From: Nicotiana tabacum
Lineage: Eukaryota; Streptophyta; Magnoliopsida; Solanales; Solanaceae
Direction: 5' to 3'
DNA length: 64,000 nucleotides
Assembly: GCF_000715075.1 (NCBI RefSeq)
Contig: NC_134095.1
Coordinates: 55,858,419-55,922,418, forward strand
Below the pieces are notes generated by a model, which saw only the letters and a list, made by a program, of their open reading frames with translations, had not been told where the DNA came from and did not search any database. The stretch's first letter is position 1. Every line of letters begins with the position of its first letter. Made by a program: the position numbers and the translations under genes. Positions 22,905-61,463 of this stretch are shown one piece after another.

Positions 22905-22909
22905 CTAAT

Positions 22910-29116: not shown

Positions 29117-29428
29117 AGAGACATAAATCCCCCAAGCACAAAACCCAAGAGTCGCCAATCAAATCTGATAGGGCACAAAACATTTTGATTCCCCAGGAAC
29201 ATGTGTCATAATGGCGACAACCACGAAACAACGCTTCAATACCAAATGGTGTTTCGGTTCCGAAACAGTCGCAACGGTCCAAGAATAACGAAAGAGCGTC
29301 GTCATCTCACTTGAAACCTAAGAAGCATAACCAAGGAACAAGTAGTTAGAATTCTCTCAAATTCGTAGCAATCATGATCTGTCTGCCTGGCCCGACAGGG
29401 GACGACCCCGACAGACGGAGGGACTAAC

Positions 29429-29954
29429 TGTATTGGTCAAAATCTGATCGATGCGGTCAAGCAGACCAACATCCCGTCCAGGAGGCAAGGCAGCGAAAGA
29501 CTACATGGTCTATTCCACATCCAGCAGTCTCGATACCCTTTAAGTTAGAAGGAACAACGTTTAGAGGACGACCAAGGCAGACATAGTGTGTGAGAGCGTC
29601 AGACCAAGTAAATAGCAAAATTCCCATAACTATATATAGTAGGAGAAAACATTCGGTTAGGGGGACGGTTCTCCACTTCTTCCTCTCTCCTTAGTTCTCT
29701 CTTCTGTAATCTTCACAATGAAAAGAAGAACGACGCAATCTCCAAAAAAGCATATAAAAAAACCTTCCCAATTGATTAATGGGAGCCACAATGAAGAGAT
29801 TCAATAAGATTGATTACCTCTATTTCATCTAATGCACTACTTTTTTCTTCAATTAGCTCATTGATCTGGAATTTATTATGTATAACTAAGGTTTACCTCT
29901 TCATGTTCTTTAATTGATTTATTCAAAAAGTTCCCATATCTTTTGAGTCAAATA
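29429..29954 (+). repeat. Tat-B 3' LTR
   Basis: 526 bp from TGTATTGGTC to GTCAAATA. Apart from one internal deletion relative to the 5' LTR it is closely similar. The terminal CA is mutated to TA. The purine-rich ACGGAGGGA just upstream is the likely polypurine tract. Confidence 0.92.
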
Positions 29955-39576: not shown

Positions 39577-42500
39577 TGTCGCACCTCCTTTTTGCCGCGC
39601 CCGCGGGGCGCGTGGGGAGTTTTCTCCAATTAAAGGACAGTCGAAACGGGATTTATTTAGTTATTTCAGAGTCGCCACCTGGGAATTTTAAGGCGTCCCA
39701 AGTCACCAATTTCAATCCCTGAATCGAGGAGAATATGACTCTGTTTATTATTCTGCGAACCAGAAATCCTGAGTAAGGAATTCTGTTAATCCGGAAGAAG
39801 GTGTTAGGCATTTCCGAATTCCGTGGTTCTAGCACGGTCGCTTAACTGTTTTTATTATTGGCTTAATTATCTTGATTTTTATTAAATATATTGATGTTGC
39901 ATGATTTTTGCTACCGCTTATACTTACTGTGTTTGAGGACCCTTCTTTGAATCGAATTACGCGTACGTATATTCGTGTTTTAAAAAAAATTGCGGACTTG
40001 TGTCACGCGTACGTGTACACAATAACTTTTGATAATATATTTATTAAGCAATCATTTTTCAAAATTGTGTCGAATCAAGAATATTTGTTTTTCTTGAATA
40101 GTGAACCGTACATCTCGGGTTTTTATGAAATTGATTTGACGCCTTTGGAAAAATCCTTTTATTAAATATTCGTTCGAAATTGCGCGTACGCATAATCCGA
40201 ATTTTTACTTTTAAAAATATAATCAGGGTACGCGAACGTATCCCTAATTGCGCAAAATATTTGTAATGGTTTAGGGATTTTCCACAAATTGTTTATTATA
40301 ATTATGTATTTCTTTTATGTGAAAATCATGAGAAACTCCTATTTAGAGGCCTATAAATTCTTTGAAAAGAATTCGCAATCTATTAAAGATTGTTCGTCGA
40401 TTATGATTTCCGAATATAAGTTATATTCATTCCAACTATTCAAATTCAAAGAACAGAATAAAAATATGATTAATACTATTTTTAAACAAATATGACATAT
40501 ATATATATATATATATGCCAAAGAATAAATTGCATATGAAACTGAAAATAAATTATTCATAAAGGAAGGAAATATTTTCCGAGAATTTTCATTATTTACT
40601 TAATGCAAATTCTATTTTTAATTATCATTGATGTAAAGTGTGGCAATTTATGTTTGTACATCTCTTTTCATTCTCATATACTCGCTTTTAATCTAATAGG
40701 CCTAATTATTTGGTCACTTTGTTTTATGAAGATAGATAAGCATCGAATTTATAGAAAGGGAATTATTATACAAGTTAATTCAACAAAGTTACCTTACATG
40801 CAACCTAACTGTTTGGCGTAAACATTCATAACGTTTTAACATTATGATGAGCTATACCAACTTACTTTACTCATATGATTATACATGTCATCATACCATA
40901 TAATAACTTATACCAATCTTAAACAAAATCATATTTGTTACAAGATATTCTACTAATGTAACTTCTTAATCTTTACATTTAGCTAATGGTATTATGGGAT
41001 GTAATCAATGGCCCATTTTTATGCCTTACTCCCTGTTTTGACAATTCACATATATCTATACCAATGAGATTTCGGAATGGCTAACATTATTACAAAAACT
41101 TTATATGAATTTCAAAATAAGACAATTTAACTCATAGCTATCAAATTGAATTCACTACTAGTTAACTAACATAAAAAATGAAATTAAAACTAATGAACTT
41201 GGACAATTGGAAAATAGCATTTCAATTCTAGCTTCATTGATGAGTCATGTTGAATCTCTTTCCAATATAGAATTTAAAAAGATATGTACCTGGAAATGGA
41301 GGTAGAAGAAGTAAGTTTCAACAGTTGCAGCAGTAACAAAAACAGCGAAATACCAGTATTCCCACAGATTTGAGCAATAATAAGATCCAAAGAAAACAGA
41401 TACACAGTACAGTTATTTTTTAACTGGACACTTCAGATGTTAACTGAATCAGTGAAACCAAGTAAGGTTGAACAGATTCAACAAAAGAACAATATTTCAA
41501 ATTTCAATTTCTTTTCAGTTTCAAATTCCCATTTTTCTGATTTTTTTTTTCTGTTTCTATTGTTGTATATCTGTGTGTGTGTGTGTGACTGCCCTTTTGT
41601 TCCCTTTCTGTTTCTTTTTCCTCTCCTAAAATCTCTCAAACTCTCTTCTTCTGAAAACTGCCCCTATTCTCTGGAAAAAAAACTCTCTCTTTTCCCTCTT
41701 AGAACTCTCTTTTTTTTTTCTCTAAGGTCTCTTCAAGACTCCCTTAAGGTCTGTCCAGCCCCTGTATTTATACAGGGCTGGTTGCACCTTTTTCATGGTG
41801 GCTGGACCCTTTTTCCCTTTAAAAATTAAAAAGTTTCCATTAAAAACTACTTTTTAATACTTTATGTGATCCTAACATGATTTTCAGCAGCCCCATTATC
41901 CCTTGTTCCCCCTTTATTACTTAAATATAGCCATTAACATTACATTATAATACACTAGCACTAACACCCCGTTCTTTACTGTTTCATTCCCAGAAATGCC
42001 CCTGACCTACTGTAATTACTGAAAAATCAGAACATACTGCAAAACAGATTCTAAAATCTGTATAAACTTAACTACCTTTCTGATTTACAGCTATAACCAA
42101 TCCTATTAACCTCCTAACACAATTGTATTTGACCAACTTTTGTAAACTTGAATTCAAATTGGACATTACAACAATATTACACTGAATTCAGAACTAACAT
42201 CATAACAACATATTACTGAAATTATCATAACAATTCAGACTGGATTTAACATTGAACCAAAATTCAACACACACAGGATCATTGTCAATCCTGACAATGC
42301 CCTGAAACTTTAATGTTCAAACAATATCATATATACAACACTCATTATGACAGATTCATATAAACCAGGATGATTTAACTGACGAGTATTAGTTAAAAAC
42401 GATTATCTACAATATCTGTCAACAAACAGTACATAATAACAGAAAACAGATTGTTTCAATTAGTATTATTATGAATGAGAATTCATAATATAACTAATCG

Positions 42501-42751
42501 ACGAACTTAATCGAGTCGATTGCTTACATTATAAATATTCACAACCAACAGAATTAATTTCATATTTGACCATATATACGGGCATGAGACAAAGATGACA
42601 GAATTAATCAAATAAAATCATGAAAAATTAACAAGCTATTAAGACAGACAACAATACACGTAGAATACACAAAGAAATAGAAAATACCTCTGAATCTTCA
42701 ATTAGACTCGAACTCAACTCGGCTTTCGGATTTTTTGTTTGAAATCAAACA

Positions 42752-42797
42752 GACCTTAGTCGAAGTATTTTCCACTGAAAATACTTCGACTAAGGTC
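42752..42797 (-). other. Perfect 21-bp hairpin in the Ogre left LTR
   Basis: Arms 42752-42772 and 42777-42797 are exact reverse complements around the loop CACT. A counterpart with a different sequence but the same fold lies at 60208-60253. It falls about 570 bases downstream of the TATA box, in the transcribed part. Confidence 0.9.
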
Positions 42798-43367
42798 GAT
42801 TAAACCTCAATCCTTTAATCAATTTGGACAAAAATCCAGAAGTTTGGTATTTCTAGGTTTCCTGAAGGTTCGATTTGGGGCTTAATCATTTCTGGTTAGA
42901 TTCGAGGGAAACCAAGTACGACACAGGGGTGAGGGAAGCCTAGGGGTTATTTGGTGTCACTTTGGAACAGATCTGGATAATTTTTGTTTGGCTCGAATCT
43001 TCAAAAGAAGATTCGAGAAGCTCTGAAGTGATTCGAGCCAAACTAACTTCAGATCCATAACAAGGGTTGTTAGGGGAAGCCGTGGTGTTAATTTGGGGCT
43101 GATTGGTTGAGATCAGGTTTTCAGGCCAACCTTCGATTTAAGATTCGAAGGGTTGGGGCCTGATTCGAAGGAATCTAAGGTCATATTTGTGTAGAGGACG
43201 TTCAGAGGGTTCTGGGGTGTCAAGGTGGTGACCGACGGCGTTGATGCCGCCGAGTTTCAGGCGAAGGGGAATAGGGGCGGCTAGGGTTAGGGGTCTGTTT
43301 GGAACGATGATGAACAGGAGCGGAGAGGGGGGTGTTTAGTTAGGGGGCCGGGTAAAGGATTATGGGT

Positions 43368-43376
43368 TTATATAGG
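43368..43376 (-). promoter_or_regulatory. TATA box of the Ogre left LTR
   Basis: Minus strand reads CCCCTATATAAACCC. The right LTR has CATATATAAG at the homologous place (60701-60712). Confidence 0.55.
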
Positions 43377-43439
43377 GGAATGGTGGGTGGATATTGACCG
43401 TTGGATTAGGCTGGATGGATGGCTGAGATCTATTCACTT

Positions 43440-43595
43440 AACCAAACGGTGTCGTTTGGTTTAAGTTAGGGGGACGGGTTGAACCGGGTATTGGATCGGG
43501 TAAGGGTCTTGGGTTAGGGTGATGAAATCTTGGCCGTTGGATGGACTTAATCCAACGGCCCTTGATGAGAGGTGACCAAACGACGTCGTTTGGTC
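43440..43595. promoter_or_regulatory. Cluster of palindromes upstream of the Ogre TATA box
   Basis: Three palindromes within 156 bp: AACCAAACG/CGTTTGGTT arms (43440-43461), GGCCGTTGGAT/ATCCAACGGCC arms (43532-43560), and a perfect 22-bp palindrome with core CAAACGACGTCGTTTG (43574-43595). The GACGTC core is a known bZIP-type site. The right LTR keeps AACGACGTCGTT at 60914-60925 and related motifs near 60783 and 60997. Confidence 0.6.
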
Positions 43596-44224
43596 TTAGC
43601 TTGGGACTGGACCGGACAGGCTGTTTGGATTGGGCTGAGGAAGTGTAATTTGATTTGGGCCTGGATTTTAAATCCAGGTCCGATTTTCCCATTCTATTTT
43701 ATTTTATTTTCTAATTTTATTATTAATAAAAAAATCCTAATAAAATTACAAAACAATTTTTAACCTTACACAAGATATTAATTACTTCATAACAACTATT
43801 TAACACATAGTCAAAACATTAATTACACAGTAAAAAAATAGAACGAATGCATATTTTTTGTGATTTTATTTAAATTATCTCTTAAACGCATAATTAAATC
43901 CTATATGCATGCAATATGTATTTTATTTTATTTTTTCATTTTATTATGACAAAATAAACTTTTACGGACATAACACAAATATTTAACACCACGCAAATTC
44001 AAAAATTACACAGTAAAAGAAATTTATTTTATTTTTGATTTATTTTTGGAGTAGTTTTAGTTAAGGCAAAAATCACGTGCTCACAGCTGCCCCTCTTTGT
44101 GCGGAAATTCGAAGAATTTTCGTGCAAAGATAAAGTGAGCGGATACGAGCGATTTTTGCCCGTTCGAATACTCCGTGGGAAGCATTTTTGAAAGATTTGA
44201 CCGAACCTCTGCTTCAAAGGTTTC

Positions 44225-44263
44225 CTACATATCCTTGGCTATAAAGGAATCAGGTCAGTGTAG
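44225..44263 (-). other. Two-stem structural motif, copy 1
   Basis: Plus strand: outer arm CTACA (44225-44229), TA, inner arm TCCTT (44232-44236), loop, inner arm AAGGA (44244-44248), ATCAGGTCAG, outer arm TGTAG (44259-44263). It lies between the left LTR and the 42-bp array. The same plan with other stem bases occurs at 46076 and 53759. Confidence 0.7.
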
Positions 44264-44634
44264 TTCGGGAATTTTTGGGTAGCTGGGACTACCGTGGGAC
44301 TGTGATGTTACTGCTGCTTCGTGCCGTTTTTTACTGCTTGCTGACCTCCTTATTACACCTTACTTCCAAGGTAATACAAAAATTAAACTAGATTATGGTA
44401 CAGGAATTAAAAATCTTATCTAGATCATGCCCTTGCGTTTCTTGTTGTCTTGATATCTTGGTGAATCTTGGGCATTTGGCTTATTCTGTATTCCCTTTGG
44501 AACTCTTGTTGTTTCTTGCTGGGGATTCTGTTGGACTCCTCTGCTTTATTGATTCTAAGTATGCTCCTTTTTCATGTGAGCGGGCTTTAGATTTCAACAT
44601 TTCAATTCCCTCGTTCTTCAGGTGGGTGCCTTGA

Positions 44635-45770
44635 CTGTTTCTTTTCTTTCTTCATCCTCATTCTCCAGGTGGACGCCTGACTTCTTCAATTCTTCATCCT
44701 CATTCTCCAGGTGGACGCCTGATTTCTTCAATTTCTTTATCCTCATTCTCCAGGTGGACGCCTGACTTCTTTAATTCTTCATCCTCATTCTTCAGGTGGA
44801 CGCCTGATTTTTTTTAATTCTTCATCCTCATTCTCCAGGTGGACGCCTGACTTCTTCTTTTCTTTGTCCTCATTCTCCAGGTGGACGCCTGACTTCTTCA
44901 ATTCTTCATCCTCATTCTCCAGGTGGACGCCTGACTTCTTTAATTTCTTTATCCTCATTCTCCAGGTGGACGCCTGACTTCTTTTTAACTTCTTCATCCT
45001 CATTCTCCAGGTGGACGCCTGACTTCTTCAATTCTTCATCCTCATTCTCCAGGTGGACGCCTGACTTCTTCAATTCTTCATCCTCATTCTCTAGGTGGAC
45101 GCCTGACTTCTTCTTTTCTCATCCTCATTCTCCAGGTGGACGCCTGACTTCTTTAATTCTTCATCCTCATTCTCCAGGTGGACGCCTGACTTCTTTAATT
45201 CTTCATCCTCATTCTCCAGGTGGACGCCTGACTTCTTCTTTTCTTTGCCCTCATTCTCCAGGTGGACGCCTGACTTCTTCTTCTCTTTGTCCTCATTCTC
45301 CAGGTGGACGCCTGACTTCTTCAATTCTTCATCCTCATTCTCCAGGTGGATGCCTGACTTCTTTAATTCTTCATCCTCATTCTCCAGGTGGACGCCTGAC
45401 TTCTTTAATTCTCATCCTCATTCTCCAGGTGGACGCCTGACTTCTTTAATTTCTTTATCCTCATTCTCCAGGTGGACGCCTGACTTCTTTTTAATTTTTC
45501 TATCCTCATTCTCCAGGTGGACGCCTGACTTCTTCTTAAATTCTTATCCTCATTCTCCAGGTGGACGCCTGACTTCTTTAATTCTTCATCCTCATTCTCC
45601 AGGTGGACGCCTGACTTCTTCTTTTCTTTGTCCTCATTCTCCAGGTGGACGCCTGACTTCTTCTTCTCTTTGTCCTCATTCTCCAGGTGGACGCCTGACT
45701 TCTGTAATTTTCATCCTCATTCTTCAGGTGGACGCCTGACTTCTTCTTTTTCTCATCCTCATTCTCCAGG
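44635..45770. repeat. 42-bp tandem array, about 27 units, cut by the gap
   Basis: Each unit contains CATTCTCCAGGTGGACGCCT followed by GACTTCTT and a short T-rich part; spacing is 40-46 bp, most often 42. The minus strand stays open in runs and gives a 14-residue repeat, EDEELKKSGVHLEN. The array stops at the N run, so its true length is unknown. Its place downstream of pol is where Ogre elements carry variable tandem repeats. Confidence 0.97.
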
Positions 45771-45970
45771 NNNNNNNNNNNNNNNNNNNNNNNNNNNNNN
45801 NNNNNNNNNNNNNNNNNNNNNNNNNNNNNNNNNNNNNNNNNNNNNNNNNNNNNNNNNNNNNNNNNNNNNNNNNNNNNNNNNNNNNNNNNNNNNNNNNNNN
45901 NNNNNNNNNNNNNNNNNNNNNNNNNNNNNNNNNNNNNNNNNNNNNNNNNNNNNNNNNNNNNNNNNNNNNN
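45771..45970. other. Assembly gap, 200 N
   Basis: Exactly 200 unknown bases directly following the tandem array. A round number suggests a fixed-size scaffold gap, so the real distance and even the correctness of the join are unknown. Confidence 0.97.
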
Positions 45971-46075
45971 TATACTTATGTTGCGCTATGTGCGTTACGC
46001 ACGCTTTACGCACACTATGTACATTATGCATCGTATATCCACTATGATGCATACTATGACCGAGCCGTGAGGCGC

Positions 46076-46111
46076 CTACGTATCCTCTTTGAGGAATCAG
46101 GTCAAACGTAG
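46076..46111 (-). other. Two-stem structural motif, copy 2
   Basis: Plus strand: CTACG (46076-46080), TA, TCCTC (46083-46087), loop TTT, GAGGA (46091-46095), ATCAGGTCAAA, CGTAG (46107-46111). It lies about 225 bases downstream of the pol stop codon. Confidence 0.75.
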
Positions 46112-46333
46112 TTCCCACGATTTTGTATTTCTTATGATTTTATCTTCTTCTTTTTTTATGTCCTTTCCATTAGTGATTCCAAAAGAGGGGTATGAAAGAA
46201 TTACTTAAGGCTCAAAGGGGGAAGCAAGGGTTAAACAGTGTTTGGATAGAAGAAAGAATTGCCTCCGTCATCTCATTATCCAACAAATGCCAAATACAAA
46301 CAAATAAACCAAAAATTGCCATAATTAAAGAAA

Positions 46334-49300
46334 TTACGCATAATATCTCTTGATTGCATCTGAATTGATAGCCATGTCGACACATCTACCCTCGACATCT
46401 GTCAAACACAGAGCGCCGTTGGACAATACTCTGGTCACGATATAAGGCCCTTGCCAATTTGGGGCGAATTTGCCTTTTGCCTCGACCTGATGTGGGAGGA
46501 TCTTCTTTAACACCTGCTGCCCTACCTCAAACTTCCTGGGGCGCACCTTCTTGTTATATGCTCTTGCCATTCTCTTCTGATACAGTTGACCATGGCACAC
46601 TACTGCCAATCTTTTCTCATCCATCAGGCTCAACCGTTCCAATCGAGCTTTTACCCATTCATCATCATCAATCCCGGCTTCAGTGACAATTCGGAGGGAC
46701 GGAATTTCGACCTCCGCCGGTATCACGGCCTCAGTTCCGTATACCAACAAATAAGGAGTTGTGCCTATGGAGGTCCGGACGGTAGTGCGGTACCCCAATA
46801 AAGCAAAGGGTAATTTCTCGTGCCATTGTCTGGACCCTTCCACCATTTTTCGCAGTATCTTCTTGATATTCTTATTGGCTGCTTCGACTGCTCCATTCAC
46901 CTTGGGACGATATGGGGTGGAATTGCGGTGTGTAATCTTGAATTGTTGGCATACCTCTTTCATCAGGCTGCTATTAAGATTCGCACCGTTATCCGTGATG
47001 ATCACTTTTGGGATCCCAAATCTGCAGATGATATGGGAGTGAACAAAGTCCGCCACTGCCTTCTTGGTTACCGATTTGAAGGTTTTAGCCTCAACCCATT
47101 TGGTGAAGTAATCAATGGTCACTAGAATGAACCTGTGACCGTTGGATGCTGCTGGCTCGATGGGCCCAATGACATCCATGCCCCATGCCACAAACGGCCA
47201 AGGTGCTGACATCGTATGTAACTCTGTTGGCGGAGAATGAATCAAATCTCCATGTATCTGGCACTGATGGCATTTCCTCACAAAAGTGATACAGTCGCGT
47301 TCCATGGTGAGCCAATAACACCCTGTTCGAAGGATCTTTCTTGCCAATACATATCCGCTCATGTGCGGTCCGCAAACTCCCGCATGTACCTCTTCCATAA
47401 CCGTCATCGCTTGACTGGCATCTATGCATCTCAACAATCCCAAATCCGGGGTTCTTTTGTACAATACTCCTCCGCTGAGGAAGAAACCATTCGACAAACG
47501 CCGAAGGGCTCTTTTTTGGTCTCCAGAGGCATGTTCTGGATATATCCCCATTCTGAGGTATTCCTTGATATCATGAAACCAGGGTTCGCCATCTACTTCT
47601 TCTTCTATGGCATTGCAGTAGGCGTGCTGATCACGGACCTGGATGTGCAGAGGATCAACATACATTTTGTCAGGGTGGTGCAGCATTGAGGCTAAGGTGG
47701 CCAAGGCATCCGCAACTTCATTGTGAACTCTCGGGATGTGTTTGAACTTCACCGATCGAAATTGCTTGCTCAGATCATGCAAACATTGTCGGTATGGTAT
47801 GAGCTTTAGGTCTCGTGTTTCCCATTCACCCTGAATTTGATGCACCAAGAGGTCCGAGTCTCCCAAGACCAAGACGTCCTGGACATCCATGTCAGCAGCC
47901 AAGCGCAGACCCAGAATGCAAGACTCATATTCGACCATATTGTTGGTGCAATAGAAGCGTAGTTGAGCCGTAACAGGATAATGCCGTCCTGTTTCAGAAA
48001 TGAGTACTGCTCCTATTCCAACCCCTTTTGCGTTTGCAGCTCCATCGAAGAAAAGCTTCCAACCCGGTTCCTCAGGTAATTCCAAATCATTCGTATGCAA
48101 CACCTCTTCGTCAGGAAAATACGTTCTTAAGGGCTCGTATTTTTCATCAACGGGATTCTCTGCCAAATGGTCTGCCAGTGCCTGGGCTTTCATGGCCGTC
48201 CTCGTTACGTAGATGATATCAAATTCTGTGAGCAGAATTTGCCATTTTGCTAACCTTCCCGTGGGCATAGGTTTCTGAAAGATATACTTCAACGGGTCCA
48301 AACGGGATATGAGATAAGTAGTGTATGAAGACAGGTAGTGCTTCAACTTCTGAGCTACCCAAGTCAGGGCGCAGCATGTTTTCTCGAGTTGAGTGTACTT
48401 GACCTCATGTACTGTGAATTTCTTGCTAAGATAGTAGATGGCCTGCTCCTTCCTTCCTGTGTCATCATGTTGCCCCAGTACACAACCAAATGAATTTTCC
48501 AAGACCGTCAGGTAAAGGATTAGGGGTTTCCCGGGCTTAGGTGGGACCAATATGGGTGGATTAGACAGATACCCTTTGATTTGGTCGAAGGCCTCCTGAC
48601 ACTCTGCTGTCCAACCTACCGCAACATCCTTTCTCAGCAGCCGAAATATGGGCTCACAAGTTGCTGTGAGTTGAGCGATGAACCTGCTGATGTAATTGAG
48701 TCTACCCAGCAAACTCATTACCTCTGTTTTGTTCCTTGGCGGTGGCAAATCGCGGATGGATTCAATTTTGGATGGGTCTAATTCAATCCCCCGTCGACTG
48801 ACGATGAATCCTAGCAACTTTCCTGATGGAACCCCGAATGCGCATTTGGCCGGGTTAAGCTTGATATCATACCTCCGGAGTCTTTGGAAAAATCTCCTTA
48901 GGTCTGCTACATGGTCCTCCTGACGCCAAGATTTGATGATCACATCATCGACGTACACCTCTATTTCTTTGTGTATCATGTCATGAAACACAGCAGTCAT
49001 TGCTCGCATGTACGTTGCCCCGGCGTTCTTTAATCCGAACGGCATTACCCGATAGCAGTAGGTTCCCCACGGCGTAATAAACACTGTCTTCTCAGCATCC
49101 TCTTCGTCCATTAGGATCTGATGATAACCCGCATAGCAATCCACAAAGGATCCGATCTCGCGCCCAGCGCAATTGTCGATCAGGATATGAATGTTAGGTA
49201 GCGGAAAATTGTCCTTGGGACTTGCTTTGTTGAGGTTGCGGTAGTCGACGCACACCCTGATTTTTCCATCTTTCTTTGGGACTGGTACCACATTGGCCAA

Positions 49301-49811
49301 CCACTCGGGATATCGAGTGACCCGAATGACCTTCGATTGCAACTGCTTGATCACTTCTTCTTTGATTTTTACACTCATTTCTGTTTTAAATTTCCTTAGT
49401 TTTTGCTTGACCGGAGGGTATGCCGGGTCAGTGGGTAGTTTGTGAACCACTAAATTGGTGCTCAATCCAGGCATATCATCATAGGACCATGCAAAAACAT
49501 CTTTGAATTCCCTGAGAGTTTCGATCAATTCTGTTTTGACATTTGGCTCAATGTGGATGCTAATTTTGGTCTCTTGGATGTTATCAGCGTCTCCTAGGTT
49601 CACAGCCTCAGTGTCATTTAGGTTAGGCTTGGGTTTCTCTTCAAATTGGCACAGTTCTCGGTTTATTTCTTCGAAGGCTTCCCCTTCGTCACATTCGGAT
49701 TCATTATCCCAAACGACCTCTTGCATCATTGAGTCAGATTCAGATTGATTTATTAGGCTAGGTCGAAGATCCGCTGTGCATGCCATGTCATTAGGACCAG
49801 TAAAAAGAGAA
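46334..49811 (-). CDS. pol: Ogre pol: RT, two RNase H domains, integrase
   Basis: Copies the element RNA and inserts the DNA. The open frame runs 49834-46334 (1,166 codons); the exon is taken to begin at 49811 after a predicted intron. Residue numbers are for the open frame. RT: VRVTRYPEW-like region near 170, CVDYRNLNKA near 195, MPFGLKNAGATY near 264, catalytic YVDD at 294-297. The first RNase H (about 435-545) lacks the usual catalytic Asp, reading LYLTVLENSFG. A second RNase H (about 592-715) keeps FFDGAAN, MVEYE, LGDSD and NEVADALA, as known for the Tat/Ogre lineage. Integrase: zinc module ending CHQCQ near 855, then catalytic Asp in MDVIG (887), Asp in TDNGA (948) and Glu in VEAANK (984). 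No stop interrupts it. This is the most intact gene in the window. Confidence 0.95.
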
Positions 49812-49993
49812 CTGTTCAGAAAGAAAAAGAACAAAACAAGAAATTAAAATGGGACAAAAGAAAAGAACTTTATTAAATTTGCAAGATAAAAAGGGTTCAC
49901 ACTTTTTACAAAACGAAAGTAAAATTGGGATCACACCCTTGAATACTCCGATCAAACAAACAAACAAACAAAACATTAATCAAAGCCTACTAC
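49812..49993 (-). other. Predicted intron between Ogre protease and pol
   Basis: 182 nt. Donor TTG|GTAGTAGGC at 49993 overlaps the protease stop codon; the acceptor is the pyrimidine-rich TTTCTTTCTGAACAG ending at 49812. Removal joins protease and RT in one frame and deletes the stop. An intron here is established for Ogre elements in legumes. Confidence 0.8.
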
Positions 49994-51660
49994 CAAGACT
50001 CCCCTCGGACAGGAAGAGGAGTAACCGTCCAATTGTTGGTCTTGGCCTCAGGCCCCACAAATTGTATCTCTGCTCTGTTGGAACCTTCTCCAGCTTCCAC
50101 CATACTGACATCCGCAAATAGCCTCTCCAAACTCTGATTCAGGTCTTCATTTATACCGATCAAAGGTCTTCGAATCTTTGGGATCGCTGACCCCTTGGTA
50201 CTAGCTTTAACAAAAGACCTTGAGAGTCGTGGCACTGGTTTAGGCAGAGACCAGACCCTCTTCTTCATTTTTCGCGCTTGCTTCCTGTCTGCTGCGGTTG
50301 GTTTGAACCCCAACCCGAAAGTTTCCAGATTCTTAGGAAGGGAGACAGGTTGGACTATCCCTTGAAGTTCAACTCCTAGGCCTTTTCCCGGCACAAACCC
50401 ATTACCCAGCATTTCTGATACCATCATGACTGTTGCGGCAGCCACCCTAGGGTGCGGAATGATTTCTCCTTCAGAAATTTTGTCGGCCGACCCTGTATCG
50501 AGAATCTGGTAGACCCAGGGACCCTTGTCATCAGTGGTCTCTATGAAAGGCACAATGGTTCCGCCCATGGTGCGTGTTGTATCCTCGCCGTGCAACACGA
50601 CCTCTTGTCTTTCCCACTCGAACTTCACTGTCTGATGTAGGGTGGAAGGCACCGCTTTAGCTGCGTGAATCCAGGGTCGTCCTAACAGCAAGTTGTAAGA
50701 TACCGTGGCGTCCAATACCTGGAATTCCATGGTAAACAGGACCGGGCCAATGGTTAGTTCAAGCACAACATCCCCCACAGTGGCTGTTCCGTTTCCGTCA
50801 AACCCCCGGACACAGATGCTGTTCTCCCGGATTCTTCCACGGTCAACCTTTAATTGGTCCAGGGTGGATAATGGACAAATATTGGCGCTTGAGCCGTTAT
50901 CCACCAATACTCGAGTTACTACCGAGTCTTCACATTTGACAGCTAGGTATAGAGCTTTGTTATGCTCCGTACCTTCCACCGGCAGGTCATCATCTGAGAA
51001 TGTTACCCTGTTCACCTCGAAAATCTTGCTGGCAATGGTTTCCAGGTGGTTTACAGAAATCTCACTGGGTACATGGGCCTCGTTCAATATCTTTAACAGG
51101 GCCCGGCGATGTTCCTCGGAATGGAGGAGTAATGACAATAGTGAGATCTGGGCAGGCGTTTTTCTCAGCTGCTCAACCACAGAATAGTCTTGCACTTTCA
51201 TCTTCCTCAGGAAGTCTTCAGCCTCTTCTTCTGACACTGGCTTCTTGGTTGCCACTGGGTTGGTTTTCCTTAACTCCACCGGAGCAAAACATCGACCTGA
51301 TCGAGTCAGCCCTTGTGCTTCACAACTGACTTCTTCCACCTGTTTTCCTTGGTACGTCACCACTGCTTTTTCATATTTCCAGGGCACAGCCCTGCTGTCA
51401 AGCATTGGCAGTTGGACCACCGGCTTTATGGTCACCCGTTCTCCACATACCCCTTTCAACATGACTGCCGGTGTGGGCAGGATCCCTGGTATTACCAACT
51501 TGCTTGGCTCGGGTTTGCTTGCTATGACGGACGGGCTCTTCCCCCATATTACTACCGGCTTGACGCCTTTTTCCTGCGACTGTACATTTGTTCCTCCACT
51601 GGTTAAGACTTCTTTTGGGGCAGCTGGATCATCATCAATGTTTGTGAGGGTTTTCTTAAT
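49990..51660 (-). CDS. pro: Ogre protease with G-patch-like tail
   Basis: Processes the polyprotein. The frame is open from about 51660 to the stop at 49990; the first Met is at 51498 (MVIPGILPTPAVMLKG), but the frame is more naturally a continuation of gag. The aspartic protease site VLVDNGSSANICPLSTL is near residue 198 and YNLLLGRPWIH near 268. Near residues 358-395 a glycine-rich segment, NGFVPGKGLGVELQ then FGLGFKPTAAD, looks like a G-patch domain, known beside protease in some retroelements. A basic stretch (RKQARKMKKRVW) follows. A one-base frame change separates it from gag, and its 3' end runs into the predicted intron. Confidence 0.85.
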   Translation of the reverse strand: MKKTLTNIDDDPAAPKEVLTSGGTNVQSQEKGVKPVVIWGKSPSVIASKPEPSKLVIPGILPTPAVMLKGVCGERVTIKPVVQLPMLDSRAVPWKYEKAVVTYQGKQVEEVSCEAQGLTRSGRCFAPVELRKTNPVATKKPVSEEEAEDFLRKMKVQDYSVVEQLRKTPAQISLLSLLLHSEEHRRALLKILNEAHVPSEISVNHLETIASKIFEVNRVTFSDDDLPVEGTEHNKALYLAVKCEDSVVTRVLVDNGSSANICPLSTLDQLKVDRGRIRENSICVRGFDGNGTATVGDVVLELTIGPVLFTMEFQVLDATVSYNLLLGRPWIHAAKAVPSTLHQTVKFEWERQEVVLHGEDTTRTMGGTIVPFIETTDDKGPWVYQILDTGSADKISEGEIIPHPRVAAATVMMVSEMLGNGFVPGKGLGVELQGIVQPVSLPKNLETFGLGFKPTAADRKQARKMKKRVWSLPKPVPRLSRSFVKASTKGSAIPKIRRPLIGINEDLNQSLERLFADVSMVEAGEGSNRAEIQFVGPEAKTNNWTVTPLPVRGESW

Positions 51661-53447
51661 TCTCCTCCCTCACACACCAACTCAATCATGTGAGTTTCGT
51701 GGTGCGCTGGCAGTGGGTTTTGGTTGATGTTGGGAGCCTCCGGTGTCTGGACCTCGATCTTATTGGTGTCAATAAGATCCTGTATGGCATGCCTTAACTT
51801 CCAGCACTTCTCGGTGTCGTGCCCGAGCATCCCTGAACAGTATTCACAACTGATTGAACGATCCAAATTCTGAGGCGGGGGATTTGGTTCCCGAGTATGG
51901 ACAGGACTAACCAAACCTAATTTCCGCAGCTTGTGGAACACAGCGGTGTAGGTTTCTCCCAGTTCGGTGAAGGTTCTTTGCTTCCGCAACCTGTCATTTC
52001 TGGCATCTGGATTTCCCCGGAAACCTGCCCCTGAAGGATTTCTATATGCCCTTGGTGGAGGGCAAGTGTTTTGTGGTGGTGCATATATGTTCTGGGGAGC
52101 CGGTGCGCGCCATTGTGGGCGAACCGGAGGCTGAGTGTATACCTGGGCTTGGTGTACGGAACAATGTGGTTCTCGAGGTGGATAGAAATTTTGTGGTGGG
52201 TTGTATGGGTAGTTTGACCTGTGAGGCCTGGGTTGGTTGTAGTGCGGCCTGCCAGCCCTGGACCAACTGCCTGCCTCGATCGCGGCAACCTCTTCTTTCT
52301 TTCTTCTTAACGCACCTCCCGTGCCGCTTTGAATAGCCTGGGTTGTGACCTTAAGTGCCGAATAGTTTACGATCTTGTCCGACCTCAAACCTTCTTCTAT
52401 CATGACCCCTATTTTGACCACCTCGTTGAAAGATTTTCCAACCGTTGTCACCAAGTGACCAAAGTAGGTTGGATCCAATGTCTGCAAAAAGTAGTCTACC
52501 ATCTCTCCCTCTCTCATGGGAGGATCGACCCTAGCTGCTTGTTCTCTCCAGCGGAACCCGAACTCGCGGAAACTTTCCCCGGGTTTCTTCCCAGTTCTCA
52601 GTAACGTGAGACGGTCAGGAACTATCTCCAGATTGTACTGGAAATGACCTGCAAAAGCCTGCGCCAGGTCATCCCACGTGTACCACCTGCTGAAATCCTG
52701 CCTAGTATACCATTCCAGTGCAGATCCGCTCAGACTTTGGCCGAAATAAGCTATCAAAAGCTCATCCTTGCCTCCTGCCCCTCTCATTTTGCTACAGAAT
52801 CCCCGCAAATGTGCCATGGGATCATCGTGCCCTTCATATAAATCAAACTTGGGCATCTTGAACCCAGCCGGGAGTTGGACATCTGGGAAAGGGCACAGAT
52901 CTTTGTATGCCACGCTGACTTGATTGCCCAACCCGTGCAAGTTCCTGAAGGACTGCTCCAGGCTTTTGAACTTTCTTAACACTTCATCCTGTTCAGGGGC
53001 CTTAACCGGCTTCTCAACCTCTGCCGGTATTTCTAAATGGGGATTGTAAGCCTGTGGTTCCGGTGCGTGGAATGTAGGCTCAGGGGGATAGTATTGTGTA
53101 TCGTGAGCCTGAAACAATGGCTCACTGGTCGTTCGCTGCAAAGGGGCTGATGCAGGTCCCACAAAAATGGGGATATTGGGTGTTGGGAGAGGTTGATGGG
53201 GTGGTGGAGCTTGGGAATCATGAGGGCTTCTTTCTTGATGATAGAGGGGATTTGGGCGGCTTGTGGAAGGGCCAGAGTGAGGGTACTCCGGCACGTGTCC
53301 CAGTGTCTCAGGGCTCTTTTGCGTTTTGGCCAGGGCTAGCTGCATTGCATGCATCTCTAGTCCCATCCTTTCAATCTTTTCCATTGCCTCTTTTAGCAAC
53401 TGGCTCATCGGCCTTTCTTCCTCATTACTATTCTCTGAAGTAGTCAT
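51603..53447 (-). CDS. gag: Ogre gag
   Basis: Capsid/nucleocapsid precursor, 614 codons. Start at 53447 (MTTSENSNEEERPMSQ). The first 60 residues can form a short helix or coiled coil (LLKEAMEKIERMGLEMHAM); a Pro/His-rich linker follows; the retrotransposon gag core lies at about 190-360 (MPKFDLYEGHDDPMAHLRGF, then SALEWYTRQDFSRWYTW and FREFGFRWREQAARV). A Tyr/Pro-rich region precedes a zinc knuckle, CEYCSGMLGHDTEKCW, near residue 550, with five instead of four residues before His. The last dozen residues are out of frame relative to protease: a one-base shift near 51655 brings the stop at 51603. Confidence 0.93.
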   Translation of the reverse strand: MTTSENSNEEERPMSQLLKEAMEKIERMGLEMHAMQLALAKTQKSPETLGHVPEYPHSGPSTSRPNPLYHQERSPHDSQAPPPHQPLPTPNIPIFVGPASAPLQRTTSEPLFQAHDTQYYPPEPTFHAPEPQAYNPHLEIPAEVEKPVKAPEQDEVLRKFKSLEQSFRNLHGLGNQVSVAYKDLCPFPDVQLPAGFKMPKFDLYEGHDDPMAHLRGFCSKMRGAGGKDELLIAYFGQSLSGSALEWYTRQDFSRWYTWDDLAQAFAGHFQYNLEIVPDRLTLLRTGKKPGESFREFGFRWREQAARVDPPMREGEMVDYFLQTLDPTYFGHLVTTVGKSFNEVVKIGVMIEEGLRSDKIVNYSALKVTTQAIQSGTGGALRRKKEEVAAIEAGSWSRAGRPHYNQPRPHRSNYPYNPPQNFYPPREPHCSVHQAQVYTQPPVRPQWRAPAPQNIYAPPQNTCPPPRAYRNPSGAGFRGNPDARNDRLRKQRTFTELGETYTAVFHKLRKLGLVSPVHTREPNPPPQNLDRSISCEYCSGMLGHDTEKCWKLRHAIQDLIDTNKIEVQTPEAPNINQNPLPAHHETHMIELVCEGGELRKPSQTLMMIQLPQKKS

Positions 53448-53758
53448 GCTTGTTGCTACTGGTCCTTTGGATCTGGTTTGGTATGAATGTGTTGCCAGAA
53501 TTCTTTAACAACTAACTGTCTGGTATCAGACAACAACAAACTTTGTTAGTGTTAGAGCTTAACAGATTTGATCATAACACATAGAGGATGCAGTGCACCT
53601 AGGCAGTTAATCGTTTCTACATGCTTTGCCTCAAACAACATACGTCATCCCGGTTTGCTCATTCATCCCTTTTTTTTAAAGTACTTTGGGAAACCCTGTG
53701 TTTTATTTTGTATTTTTATTTTTATTTATTAAAAGCGGTCGAATCTTATGGGGATTGC

Positions 53759-53797
53759 CTACGTATCACGTCCCCGCGTGAATCAGACCAGGCGTAG
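53759..53797 (-). other. Two-stem structural motif, copy 3
   Basis: Plus strand: CTACG (53759-53763), TA, TCACG (53766-53770), loop, CGTGA (53777-53781), ATCAGACCAGG, CGTAG (53793-53797). It sits in the 540-base spacer between ORF1 and gag, roughly 195 bases after the ORF1 stop. Confidence 0.75.
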
Positions 53798-53990
53798 TTC
53801 TGCCTTAAAGTAAAGAAACACACAATTCTTGTGAAATCATTGAATTCATTCTCAAAATTTTGCTATTACAAATTACATCAAGCAAGGAATAGCAATAGTA
53901 CAGACTCCACGGTTTTAAAATCGGTTTAACGAAAAAGAAAACAACATATGGAAAAACAACCAAAGCCAAATAAACAGGACTTGACCAAAA

Positions 53991-56035
53991 CTAATTCTCC
54001 AATTTAAGGGGCCGCGAGGCATCATCCGGCCTTTTCGCGGCTCTAGGTGTAAGGTCTCTTTGCAAACTCTTCAACTCGTTCATAATCCGGCGGACGCAGC
54101 CCATGATGGAAACAAGGAGGGTCTTCCGAGGTGTTCGCTCATATGCCAAGCATTTCATGTAGATGTAATGCCCTATTTCATCAATCCTTCCCTGGATGTT
54201 GTCCCTTTCTGTGAACAAATGCCTTATCTGTTGGTTCTTCAATCCCAGTGTTTGCGCATTGTTGGCAAGCTGATCCTGGAACATCTCCATTTGCCTTTCC
54301 ATTCTGGTCATTGCATCGTAATATTGCCTTCTGTCGGCTTGGGCATTTCGTGTTTGCTTGAGGATCCTTTCTCGAAGAGAGGCATTCGTTTCCCTTAATG
54401 TCCCGATGCTCAGTTCATACTCCCTTATGACTTGTTGCAGGCGCTGCCTCCGAGCCATCGCACCCTTTGCCCACTTGGTTCGCAATTTTGCTGTGCTGGC
54501 CCTGGCTTTTTCCAAATCTTCCTGGCATTCCGCAACCTGATCTTTTAACCCTGCTATCAATCTTTTATCTGCCCGGCTTCCTAGCTGGCTATTAGCCTCT
54601 TTTTTCATTCTCCGGATCTGAGCTTTGAGGATCTCGCCTTCTCTGATTAACTTGTTCTTTTCTCCCTTGTGGGCAGCAGACTGTAATTGGCACTCAAACT
54701 TCATATCCTGAACTTGTTGCTTCAGTTTGCCTGCTTTGACAAGATATTCCTGCTCTTTGGCCAACCAGCCCCACTGTTCTTGTGAAGATTTGGCAAATTC
54801 TTGCAGGTGAGGTCTTTTGGTCGGTCTTCCAGATGATGTCTCCCCTTTGTACCAGGCCTGATACCCGGGCGAAACTTCCCCTTTTGCCCGATTCATTACA
54901 CAAGTATTTGCTTCTAAGTATTGACATTGGCTCCAAATTTGACGAACCCTTGCTTCAGGAAACTGGCCGTCGGGACTGATCTCGATTACCTGGATGCTCA
55001 GATCCTCATCTTTCGGCACTATCTGATACCTCCCAAGTTGCCTTAAAACCCGATGCGGCGCGTATGGTTGAATACTTTTAAGTCCCATTAAGAGAAAATG
55101 GGGCCTGGCTGCTGGCATGTATATGACTTCGTCGATCGGTAGCCACCCTAGCGCCCACTGTATTTGACTGGCGTTGAGGGTATGGAAATATGAGGTCCAT
55201 GCTATAACTCCTTCTGGTAGGTAGGTTTCATCAACTCTGGTATAGAACTCCTCTATGCAGGTCTTTCCAGCGGATCCATGGCTCAGAAACTGGGCTCGGT
55301 GACATAGGTGTTCGATCATCCACATTTGCAACAACAAATTGCAACCCTCGAAAAAGCTTCCTCCGGCTTTGCAAGAAGTGAGTGCCCGGAATATATCAGA
55401 TACTATCATGGGCGCCAACGTACTATCACTCCGTGTGAGCAACGTACTGACGACCCCTGCTATCTTTATGTCAATATTCCCATCTTTTCTTGGGAATACT
55501 AGTAGTCCTAAGAAAGTTATCATGAAAGCAATTCGTCTATGTTCTTCCCACTTTTGGCGATTACCTTTGCTGCACAACTGGTTTTCTGGCTTGTCGAATC
55601 CTCCTATGTGACCATATCTTTGATATATGAAACTCATGCTGCAAAAACTTTTGCCAAGTCAGGGTTATGAATTGTTCTGACTATCTTTAAGGAGTCCAGG
55701 AACCGGTGTACTGCTACAGCTCTTGGAGCAATCAGATATTTGTGCCTCAGAGGAGTCTCAGTGCTGCCGATATACCCTGCTATTTCTTCTAAAGTTGGGG
55801 TAAGTTCAAAATCTGAGAAACGGAAGACATTGTGCGCAGGATCCCAGTGGGGGACTAGTGCCCTTATGATATCTCCTCGTGGCCTGATATCCAACAAACT
55901 CGTGAGGCCTTTCAGATACTTCTTGATTTCGTCATGCCCCTCTTTGCCCAAATCATTCCACCAGAGCCGCAATTGGAGGGGAATTTTATTCATGATTGAA
56001 AAGGGTTCATTCGGAATCGTGCTCATTCTGCACAT
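53991..56035 (-). CDS. Ogre ORF1 protein, frameshifted
   Basis: Extra protein encoded upstream of gag, a mark of Ogre elements; its function is unknown. Two frames, 56035-55634 (133 codons) and 55637-53991 (548 codons), overlap as ATGA, most simply explained by a one-base indel in a single ORF of about 680 residues. The N-terminal part (LRLWWNDLGKEGHDEIKKYL, VPHWDPAHNVFRFSDFELTP, TLEEIAGYIGS) resembles the DUF7745-type plant mobile domain, from memory. From about residue 285 of the longer frame to 500 it is a long coiled coil rich in Gln, Lys, Glu and Arg. Start taken at 56035; another Met lies at 56002. Confidence 0.8.
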
Positions 56036-57170: not shown

Positions 57171-60100
57171 TGTCACACCTCCTTTTGCCGCGCCCGAGGG
57201 GCGCAGGGGGAGTTTTTTTCCAATTAAAGGACAATCGAAACGGGATTGGTTTAATTATTTCAGAGTCGCCACTTGGGAGATTTAGGGTGTCCCAAGTCAC
57301 CAATTTTAATCCCGAATCGAGGAAAAGAATGACTCTATATCATGGTCTGCGTACCAGAAATACGGATAAGGAATTCTGTTAACCCGGGAGAAGGTGTTAG
57401 GCATTCCCGAGTTCCGTGGTTCTAGCACGGTCGCTCCACTGTTATATTCGGCTTGATTATCTGATCTTATACAAGTGTGAACTTATGTGCAAAATTTAAC
57501 TTTTAACCGCTTTTATCATTTACTGTTTTTATCAAGAATTGCAACGTTGTGAAAACATATCTTGAATCACGTTGCATCAATGCACCCGTGATTGTTGACA
57601 TATTTTGACTCGGCTGAGATTTGGATTTGGGTCACATAAATGTGCACCCGAATTAAGGAGAGTAAATTATTAAGACGTGCCTAAAGCAACTAGCGTATTT
57701 GTTGTTTTGGGTAAGGCCGAAAAGTTCGCTAAACGACCTGTCCCGAATTCTAAGTGTTTTAATATATATACAGTTGGAGGGCCCCGTAGTTGTGTACATT
57801 TTTTATTTGGCGAGGCTCATCTCAAGTTTTTTTTTTAAAATGAAACTGCAACGTCATGGACACGCATCTCGAACCACGTCACAATCAATGTACCCGTGAT
57901 TAGAAACACATTTCGACTCCGTTGAGAATTGGATTTGGGTCACATAAATGCGCACCCGAGTTTAAGAAGGTAAGATTTATTAAGGCGCGTCCTAAAGAGT
58001 CTAACGTATTGTTATTTTTAGGAGAGTTGTGAGATTTGCTAAACAACCCGTCCTGGAACCTAGATGCTTTGATAATACACATTTAAACAAGGGCCCCGCG
58101 TCTGTGCGTTTTGTTTATTTTCATCGAGGCTCATCTCGTTCTTTTTTTTTTTTTTTTTTAAAAGGATATCCTATAACACCTACGTTTCTCGTCGTGTTTG
58201 TCTTTATCAATTGAAAACAGTAGATAGTCCTAATTAATTAAATGCTTGCAAGTTGTTTGTAATGACATTCAGAAAAGCTAAAAAAAATTCAGAAATGAGG
58301 TTGTATGTACAGTCAGCCGAACAAACAATTATAGGCCCAAATCCAGCCCATGCGTGATAGGCCAGACCTGGGCCTCTGCCTGTTCTACGCGGGCCTACTT
58401 GGTTTGCTTCGATTTGGGCTCGACCTTCATGAGGTTGAGGCCCTGAACTGATTCTTTGTTTTGTGAAATGAGTTTATCAATTTATGTGACAATATGGCAA
58501 AAGGAGAAAGAACTTTAACTAAAACGGATAGCTTTCCTATTTGGCCTACATTAGAGAATATACTACACCATCAGACTAAGTCTGAAATACAACTTATTAC
58601 ACTGGGCATATTTTCACCTAGCAGTATACATACAAGGCTAGCATTCGTTAACCTACATTGATATGCTTAGTATGTAGGCTGCTTCTATTGTCCAAACAAA
58701 AATGTAACTATTTCATGACATTCAGAGTAACAGTTCATGTACATATATAAAAAAACAATCTGCAGGTCCTCTCTTTTGCATTCATGCTCAAACTTTCAGT
58801 TACATTTGTGGTATTAATTGTGTACCAGGTATGGAGGACAAAGAAGGAAGGAATGGTCAGCTGGGCAGTATGCAGTAAACACAGCAACAACAGATACACA
58901 GCAACAACACAGCAACAACCAACTGAACCAAGTGTTTTCCACAGCCACAGACAACCAACAATATCTCCCAGAATACAAGGACTAGCAGATAGTCGAAACC
59001 GAGCCAGCAATCCCAGGAAAGAGTAAGGAAATAACAGTAGTAACTGAGGGTTCAAATGCAGTAAAACTAACAGTTCAACAACCAACAACCAACTCAGCCA
59101 ATGCAAGCAACAGAACTTGGCCAAGACAGCTTTGACCAATATGCACTCTTGTACAACTTTCAGGCAGTGTTTGGTTACAATGTCTATTGGAAACTACCTT
59201 GTGTTTACGCTATTGTGATTTGGGACTCACTAGACCTCTCTTCAGACTAAAGTTTTTTTCTTTCTGAAGACTCAAAAGTCCAGCCCTCTTTAAGTTATCA
59301 AAATGGCTTATTTATAAGCCGAAAACCAGTGCAGTTAAGCTGCCTTTTTTTGCTGCAACTTGCAGCCTGCCCATACTCTTTAAAGCCCATGCCTAAGCAT
59401 CTTTTGGTGTCAGCCCCCTTTATTCCCACGCCTGGTTTTGTTTAATCAGGAGTTATGGGCATCATTTTTTATTCAATTTAAGTCCCATACTCTTATGTCT
59501 TGTTCCCCATTGGCATTAATTTAATCCCAAATTAGTACCCTACTTGTCAGCTCATTTAAACTAATCATTTTTGTTCTTTGCAAACCCCAGACTACCCCTG
59601 TTAAACCCTGGTTATCACTGTCTTGACCCTTTGCAGCATCAGGGCATTTTTGAACTGATGAAAGTTCAAATTCAGGACTGCCTAGACTGAACCTTTCAGT
59701 CATTTTTCAATGCAAACAAACTATTTCAAACAATGCTGGGGCCTTCAATCAGTGGCAAAGTATCAATTAGTCATGCGACATTATTAGCTCGTTTGATTCA
59801 TTAGTTATAGAAACTAATCAACGACATTTATCGAGTCGACTATACTAATTATAGCAGGTAATAATCAGTCGCTCACATAAACAATATGTTCAGGGACTTA
59901 AAGGGCATCAGACAATTTTGTGTTCAATTACTGGGAACCTATATAAGTTTATTCATTTGACGACTAATCTAATCGAACATGTTCATCACAGAATACATTC
60001 AAATCATACACAGAAAACAATTGACCAAATAAAAGGTCTTTACAGAGATGAAAGAAATCCAAAAAAAAATAACAAAATAACAACCAAACACAAAGAGATA

Positions 60101-61463
60101 TGCTGACAACTTATTTAGAAATAAAACAAAAGAAAGGAAAACTTACCAAAATGTTTAAATCAAACAGACCCAAATCTGATTCAACTTCGAATTTTTGAGG
60201 CCGAACAAACTTTAATCAGGGTGTTCTCACATGAGAACACCTTGATTAAGGTCTATTAGACCTCAAACCCATGTCAAAACTGGCCGGGTTCCCCAGGTGC
60301 ATGTGTTTAAAGTTCTGGATTTCCAGATCTGGATTTTTAGGAGTTGTGGGTAGATTCGGACCAAACCAAGCTTGGTTTTGTCACGAGGAAGGTCAGGGGA
60401 GTGTCTGGTATGAAGATGGGATGGTTTGGCATAGATCCGGGTTCGACTCAAATCTTCAAATGAAGATTCGAGACGAACGGAAGTGATTCGAGGCTCGTGG
60501 TTAGTGGATTTGTGTTCAGGACAGTGAGGTGGTCCTAGGGTGTTCAGGAGGTGGCCACCGGCGTCCATGCCGCCGGTTTTAATGGCGAGGGATACTGGGG
60601 CGGCTGCTAGGGTTCGAGGATGAGAAGGGGCTGTGTTTAGGACGAGGGTGTACAGTGGGGAAGGTGGGGTTTGGTTTGGGGGGCGTGGGGTGTAATGGAG
60701 AACTTATATATGTATTGAGGATTTAGATCCTGGCCGTTGGATCAAGTGAGATCTATGGCCAGGATCCATCCACTTAGGAAAGACGGTGTCGTTTGGGCGT
60801 GATGGTGGGTGAGACCGGGTAAAGGGCATGGATCGGGCCATGTTGACGGGTTTAGAGGAGGGCCTGGATCCGTTGGATCAATGGGGTTGGATGGCTTAGA
60901 TCATCTTGCCTGAAACGACGTCGTTGAGGCGAGTTGAACAGCCTGATCTGGACCGTTCGTTTGAATCAGATCAACGGCTTTGGTAGGGATGCCGATACGG
61001 CGTCGTTTGAGTCCGTGTTTGGGCAGGCTTGTTTTAGACTGGATCAGAGTGCTGGTTTGGGCCTGTTTTATTTCATTTCTTTTGGGCCCAAACCGGTTTT
61101 CCCTCACTCTTTTACTTTTCTTCTTTTTTTTTTTAATAATAATAAATAAAATAGTGAAATTAAAATCAACAACACTGTGACATTTCCACATAATTATCAC
61201 AAAATATTTAAGTAAGTTAAACCACAACCTAGAACGAACGACGCACATATATTCATATTTTTGAATTTTCTTTTAACGACACATATACTTTATATATATA
61301 TATATTTTTTTGTATTTTCGTTTGATAATGACTAGATGCAAAATGGACAGACCCACAAACACATGTCACGGACAGATCGAAAAATTGTACAGCGAAACCA
61401 TTTGTCACTATTTTTATTTTCTTTTGGAGCGATTGTCCGTAAAGCAAAAATCACGTGCTTACA
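57171..61463 (-). repeat. Ogre right (5') LTR
   Basis: About 4.3 kb, plus-strand ends TGTCACACCTCC and GTGCTTACA. It is strongly similar to the left LTR near both ends but only loosely in the interior. Minus-strand TATA box near 60704-60711; palindromic ACGTCG motifs at 60783, 60914 and 60997; hairpin at 60208-60253. Confidence 0.88.
60208..60253 (-). other. Hairpin in the Ogre right LTR
   Basis: Arms 60208-60228 and 60233-60253 around the loop ACAT pair at 20 of 21 positions, with two G-T wobbles and one mismatch at the base. It is in the same place as the perfect hairpin of the left LTR. Confidence 0.85.

Follow-up and report, generated by a model that had tools for sequence, protein, structure and literature searches.

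We analysed a stretch of 64,000 nt from Nicotiana tabacum (assembly GCF_000715075.1, contig NC_134095.1, positions 55,858,419 to 55,922,418), called the window throughout, which carries on its minus strand an Ogre-type long terminal repeat (LTR) retrotransposon with three copies of a short, structured RNA motif (Table 1). All open reading frames (ORFs) of the element lie on that strand, and the RNA sense is therefore the reverse complement of the window. An additional ORF with a plant mobile domain 5′ of gag is reported for 57% of Ogre elements (PMC6317226; this and the other articles cited by PMC number were available to us in part), and the window element shares this trait, its plant mobile domain scoring 57.2 bits against a Pfam cut-off of 34.9. 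It also shares the extra RNase H that the Ogre lineage, like Retand, has between RNase H and integrase (RVT_3 at amino acids 596–714 of pol, flanked by RT_RNaseH at 434–538 and rve at 882–977). The ORF at the protease position and the pol ORF are 155 nt apart, at the place where Ogre elements have a spliced intron between gag-pro and reverse transcriptase. A Pfam scan named no protease domain in the former, which stands where Ogre has its protease.

Table 1. Motif copies and parts of the Ogre-type element in the window (positions on the forward strand).
Feature	Position	Strand	Remarks
5′ LTR	57171-61463	-	much diverged from 3′ LTR
ORF1	53991-56035	-	two overlapping ORFs, 55634-56035 and 53991-55637; plant mobile domain and DUF7745
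Copy C, 65 nt	53736-53800	-	between ORF1 and gag; 190 nt past ORF1 stop; P1 53793-53797/53759-53763; PK 53786-53790/53736-53740; P2 53777-53781/53766-53770; P4 53753-53756/53742-53745
gag ORF	51603-53447	-	Retrotrans_gag match slightly under Pfam cut-off
ORF at protease position	49990-51498	-	between gag and pol; sole match G-patch, below cut-off
pol ORF	46334-49834	-	reverse transcriptase, RNase H, second RNase H-like domain, integrase
Copy B, 58 nt	46057-46114	-	219 nt past pol stop; P1 46107-46111/46076-46080; PK 46100-46104/46057-46061; P2 46091-46095/46083-46087; P4 46071-46073/46064-46066
Tandem array, period 42	44648-45770	.	between copies B and A; stops at 200-N gap 45771-45970
Copy A, 69 nt	44198-44266	-	112 nt ahead of 3′ LTR; P1 44259-44263/44225-44229; PK 44253-44257/44198-44202; P2 44244-44248/44232-44236; P4 44218-44222/44204-44208
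Polypurine tract AAAGAGGGGCAGC	44086-44098	-	immediately before 3′ LTR; named by inspection
3′ LTR	39577-44085	-	ends set by inspection and LTR comparison

A preliminary description of the window had presented the motif as a two-stem structure occurring three times. The copies and their stems were found where it had placed them, and the pattern GAACTACR-N(0-6)-GRYCTGATTC matched the window three times, whereas 100 dinucleotide shuffles averaged 0.00 matches. The three copies also served to build covariance models, which recover them by construction and had no other match in the window up to E = 10. Both stems (P1 and P2) are real, but the unit is longer than described: over 58–69 nt it also includes a hairpin, P4, and a helix, PK, in which the conserved GRYC pairs with a strand farther downstream. 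In the sense orientation it is laid out as GAA-CUACR (P1), 1–2 nt, UGRYC, UGAU with hairpin P2, UA, YGUAG (P1′), G, hairpin P4, 2 nt and the partner of UGRYC. The order of the copies had been reversed in the preliminary description; along the RNA, copy C (53.8 kb) follows ORF1, copy B (46.1 kb) follows pol and copy A (44.2 kb) precedes the 3′ LTR.

Within the window, all 57 of 57 pair cells of a hand alignment are standard, and both sides have changed in 8 of the 18 aligned pairs; a MAFFT alignment gave 40 of 40 cells and 5 pairs, equalled by 4 of 500 shuffles. PK reads UGACC/GGUCA in copies A and B and UGGUC/GACCG in copy C, that is, two compensating changes and one change from U-A to U.G. 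Taken alone it was unhelpful, as shuffling the downstream 40 nt produced it in 733 or 1393 of 40,000 trials, depending on the criterion. PK together with P4 in register was obtained in 2 of 40,000 trials by either criterion, under a P4 rule fixed after the copies had been inspected. When columns were shuffled jointly, PK alone turned up 414 or 1217 times and PK with P4 0 or 1 times.

Exact copies of the motif's 5′ half number 41,961 (21,208 + 20,753) in the genome from which the window comes (4.0 Gb, 700 contigs), where the same pattern read backwards has no match. The first sample drawn from it consisted of 88 stretches fetched from 100 listed places, all on contig 1 (8 as 3-kb loci and 80 as short stretches). 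Of these, 87 fit the model end to end, L162 being the exception, and the sample with the three window copies amounts to 67 distinct sequences. A pattern-free model search of 40 six-kb loci picked around such places made up the second sample, which largely overlaps the first; it yielded 63 copies (59 distinct), of which 44 fit the strict pattern. The independent sample was hand-picked for variety from 14 contigs and comprised 40 of the 89 genome matches to CTGATCC-N(2-30)-GATACGTAGG, a pattern that puts no constraint on the P1 5′ strand or the PK 3′ strand; all 40 (39 distinct) matched the model end to end. The pooled set holds 125 distinct copies, 124 of them with letters in both PK strands, and related copies in the samples are not independent of one another.

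Across these copies, the paired positions change in concert. P1, PK and P2 are paired in 98.0% of 935 cells in the first sample, with 76 double-change cells, and sliding the partners by 1–3 columns left only 24.6–35.0% paired. The second and independent samples gave 95.6% of 824 cells with 112 double changes and 93.2% of 503 cells with 66 double changes, respectively. For paired cells, double-change cells and covariation score alike, 0 of 500 shuffles matched the observed value in any of the three samples. The compensating stem changes of the preliminary description therefore hold in genomic copies, and covariation over many copies, the absence of which it had named as evidence against the structure, is strong. 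Counting the pairs that show any double change gives no advantage over shuffles (465 of 500 in the first and 171 of 500 in the independent sample), and the number of pair types is not clearly above them (20 of 500 in the second, 40 of 500 in the independent sample).

For PK, 568 of 620 pooled cells are formed, compared with a mean of 502 and a maximum of 523 in 2000 shuffles; all five pairs are present in 82 of 124 copies and the inner four in 104. The inner four pairs occur in five Watson–Crick states (GACC/GGUC in 50 copies, GGUC/GACC in 17, GGUU/AACC in 6, GAUC/GAUC in 5 and GGCC/GGCC in 1), together with G.U intermediates. Among the 52 cells that fail, the outermost pair is the weakest (16/38 in the independent and 11/59 in the second sample), and some copies of the leader class (see below) are truncated at PK′ by the alignment. 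P4 was found in 112 of 125 copies (1000 shuffles: mean 24.8, maximum 38). The unpaired letters are almost fixed (GAA in 120, UGAU in 123, UA in 125 and G in 124 of 125 copies), partly because the search patterns include them. G.U outnumbers A.C by 33 to 13 in P1, PK and P2 of the first sample and by 48 to 21 in PK overall, which favours the sense RNA as the folding strand.

Since base pairs covary across 125 distinct copies, we predict that the RNA adopts a conserved pseudoknot, a fold that we regard as well supported. In the predicted model P1 and PK form together, in the strand order P1-PK-P2-P1′-P4-PK′; seen differently, PK, P2 and P4 would make a three-way junction with the 5′ flank pairing back into it. 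The almost invariant GAA, UGAU, UA and G are likely to form a tertiary core. We also considered a pseudoknot between the P2 loop and letters downstream, which is seen in copy C only.

The same strand order is found in the hepatitis delta virus (HDV) ribozyme (P1-P2-P3-P1′-P4-P2′) and is common to HDV-like ribozymes. That the motif is a self-cleaving ribozyme is nevertheless a very remote prospect. Its P1 is shorter than in HDV-like ribozymes and begins with C, copy B has no space for a P1.1 helix, and the position corresponding to J4/2, the would-be catalytic C before PK′, is not invariant (C in 112, U in 8 and A in 2 of the 122 copies with letters there, the other 3 of 125 having gaps). Hammerhead ribozymes have CTGAT followed by GA in their core; the motif has CTGAT followed by TC, and this candidate was rejected. 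None of 4227 Rfam families matched the window at its gathering score, and lax Rfam scans of the three copies returned only Lnt (E 0.57) and TtnuCD31 (E 8.1). No real copy appeared in scans of viral contigs (in the first of which 0 of 87 stretches had the partner half) or in one scan of prokaryote contigs, and a protein search with the antisense frame through copy B gave no match. As the HDV catalytic position varies, the second pseudoknot of flaviviral exonuclease-resistant RNAs (xrRNAs) is missing and Rfam gives no match, the motif is not a member of the flaviviral xrRNA, HDV-like or Rfam classes on the tests made.

We recognised no description of the motif in the open literature, including searches with the motif text; subscription articles on Ogre were outside this scope and may hold an earlier one. 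The accessible portions of PMC3305785, PMC12786077, PMC6317226 and PMC11963269 do not describe it. A potato primer with 10 matching letters (in the accessible portion of PMC11397162) was taken as chance.

To see where copies sit in the element, we assigned them to classes (A, B, C, D and leader) from the motif letters and then checked the classes by protein matches in 48 loci, which represent 44 places (L234–L237 duplicate L132, L134, L139 and L135). The proposal that copies stand at the ends of coding blocks was borne out in genomic copies. In 11 of 12 C places, an ORF1 match ends 171–277 nt upstream and a gag match lies downstream (L239 has no match at all); 9 of 12 B copies lie 167–333 nt past a pol match, the other three following a gag match and having no pol match; and all three D copies are 33–37 nt past a pol that is 48–62% identical to the window pol. 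The preliminary description had missed a further copy that relatives carry in the leader, 480–875 nt ahead of the ORF1 match in all 10 of the C loci that have ORF1 and extend far enough upstream. C, B and D copies thus come after a stop codon, and leader and A copies do not. With leader copies ahead of ORF1 and C copies ahead of gag, the motif could be imagined to control translation of the next ORF by internal entry or reinitiation, as had been suggested. After B, D and A copies, however, no sense coding match of the element was found, which makes this role highly improbable.

A GGGGCAG box follows many of the 3′ copies. It lies 149–178 nt downstream of the motif in 12 of 17 A places, and in the five of these inspected it is followed by an LTR-like start with TGT; 7 of 12 B places and all 3 D places have the box downstream as well. 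At these B (L137, L238, L242–L244, L247, L248) and D places (L134, L139, L249) the distance is 97–195 nt, and the box resembles the polypurine tract, as if a module of motif plus tract were present twice. A function in reverse transcription linked to this tract, by plus-strand priming or template switching, would suit such an arrangement, but none of the 12 C and none of the 12 leader copies has the box within 400 nt, and we consider it very unlikely.

Orientation and order are as regular as position. Where loci had a protein match (32 of 48), none was antisense to the copy; of 45 neighbours no more than 15 kb apart among the 100 listed places, 39 were on the same strand, and 34 of these 39 steps led from a C copy to B or A, or from B to A. 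Copy numbers in the tens of thousands, the offset repeat CAAAAAT beside copy A and the short AT-rich repeats beside copy C could point to a tiny mobile repeat, or the likeness could be due to chance. Against this stand the fixed places and orientation in the element, the lack of a flanking repeat at copy B and the compensating changes, so that its probability is next to negligible. The scattered distribution that the preliminary description had foreseen for such a repeat was not what we saw; across the sampled portion of the genome, the copies mostly ride with the element.

Copies also persist where coding matches are missing. By tblastn, a missing match being weaker than proof of absence, L240 has leader, C and B copies and a gag fragment with no ORF1 or pol match, and L241 and L237 have a B copy after gag with no pol match; three loci without detectable pol, each with a B copy, thereby keep the motif. 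Together with L239, these loci are apparent derivatives of the element, all still with motif copies. The motif has a fixed place, a single orientation and compensating changes, and it persists where coding matches are missing; a cis-acting RNA element is therefore well supported. The sequence type of the motif is moreover specific to each site, which suggests that each copy matters at its place.

The window element itself is probably a decayed copy, as gag and the next ORF (49990-53447) are in different reading frames. Its two LTRs align in four blocks only, with 85% identity over 298 and 52 nt and 66–67% over two longer blocks, and no matching target duplication was seen. Given these observations, and with a run of 200 N separating copy B from copy A, the part on the left (copy A and 3′ LTR) and that on the right may be different insertions joined at the scaffold gap. 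The order C, B, A on one strand does occur in close relatives. Elsewhere in the window, a tandem array of ∼90-bp units with open minus-strand frames (24235-26023) lies between repeat copies at 22905-23662 and 29424-29952 that are 89–94% alike.

What the motif does can be approached from these positions. Our preferred reading, offered tentatively and short of calling it probable, is that this conserved predicted pseudoknot on the Ogre coding strand is a cis-acting barrier that protects the RNA from decay and stands at coding-block borders. The 5′-to-3′ exonuclease of plants is XRN4. The knot would stall such an enzyme and/or would shield the stop codons of ORF1 and pol from nonsense-mediated decay, and the very long multi-ORF transcript would thereby survive for translation and reverse transcription.

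A decay barrier is favoured by analogy with three viral systems. The pseudoknot of dianthovirus-type xrRNAs starts from a hairpin loop, unlike that of the motif, which starts from an internal loop and has loop pairing in copy C only. Likenesses to this type are the two stacked stems, the pseudoknot, the fixed unpaired letters and the location, plant-virus xrRNAs being found in intergenic regions and 3′ untranslated regions (UTRs) (PMC6299227). In flaviviral class 1a xrRNAs, which often occur as several copies in series, a three-way junction is itself pseudoknotted (PMC8571300); the motif is predicted to be built alike. The helices of the motif that correspond to the junction and its 5′ flank (PK1) covary, and their joint formation and three-dimensional fold are predicted; the helix between flank and junction has 5 bp rather than the flaviviral 1–2 bp, with no consistent second pseudoknot. 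The stability element of Rous sarcoma virus, which retroviral RNA needs as protection from nonsense-mediated decay, follows the gag stop codon and, like the motif, stands after a retroelement stop codon before a very long untranslated stretch, and the pol and src UTRs are also able to act; it differs in being at least 155 nt long, in its sequence and in having one main site (PMC2925335).

Several observations weigh against a decay barrier or the fold on which it depends. Leader copies precede all ORFs and A copies come after a long array, so stop-codon shielding cannot account for all sites, and B places without pol keep the motif, which is therefore not there solely to protect pol expression. 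The window leader lacks a leader copy, as does that of L300 (93% identical), and the window's subfamily has lost it. The second pseudoknot needed by flaviviral xrRNAs has 6 bp in copy A, where 105 of 2000 shuffles were as good, and only 3 bp, the chance level, in copies B and C. Simultaneous formation of P1 and PK is something we infer, an inner PK pair is missing in 20 of 124 copies (partly from alignment ends), and the nested folding energies of the three copies are ordinary (z −1.84, −0.29 and −0.28).

Packaging and nuclear export are serious rivals to the decay barrier, although we think each of them unlikely. As a packaging or dimerisation signal, the knots would be bound by Gag to select element RNA, with several sites providing avidity on a very long RNA. 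Retroviral packaging signals lie in the leader and pre-gag region, where leader and C copies are found, and retention at places with gag and no detectable pol fits RNAs moved in trans; copies after pol and beside the polypurine tract would not be needed. Alternatively, the knot would recruit mRNA export machinery for unspliced, intron-containing Ogre RNA, in the manner of the MusD MTE of mouse or the IAP RTE. Ogre RNA is spliced only in part (PMC6317226), copies between pol and LTR are retained without pol, and the MTE, a structured cis element of LTR retrotransposon RNA as is the RTE, is described as exporting RNA in an NXF1-dependent way through pseudoknot and kissing-loop motifs (PMC12786077). 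However, one copy should suffice for export, and further copies, of a sequence type particular to each place, stand ahead of ORF1 and gag. MTE and RTE are animal elements, likened here by description and not by sequence, and the available part of that review reports no plant counterpart and has no export data for plant LTR retrotransposons (PMC12786077). A role in RNA processing is possible.

The motif bears on the persistence, nuclear exit and packaging of a retrotransposon transcript as long as that of Ogre, which has several ORFs and keeps its intron in part. The motif is short (∼65 nt), very abundant and absent from Rfam, and it provides a coding-independent marker with which Ogre/Tat elements, including derivatives with missing genes, can be found and sorted. 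A bolder version of the decay barrier, possible but doubtful at present, is that this new RNA fold serves as punctuation, with serial decay blocks bracketing the coding blocks, and would make up the first class of exonuclease-resistant RNAs to come from a cellular retrotransposon. If true, one such pseudoknot would be present tens of thousands of times in a single genome.

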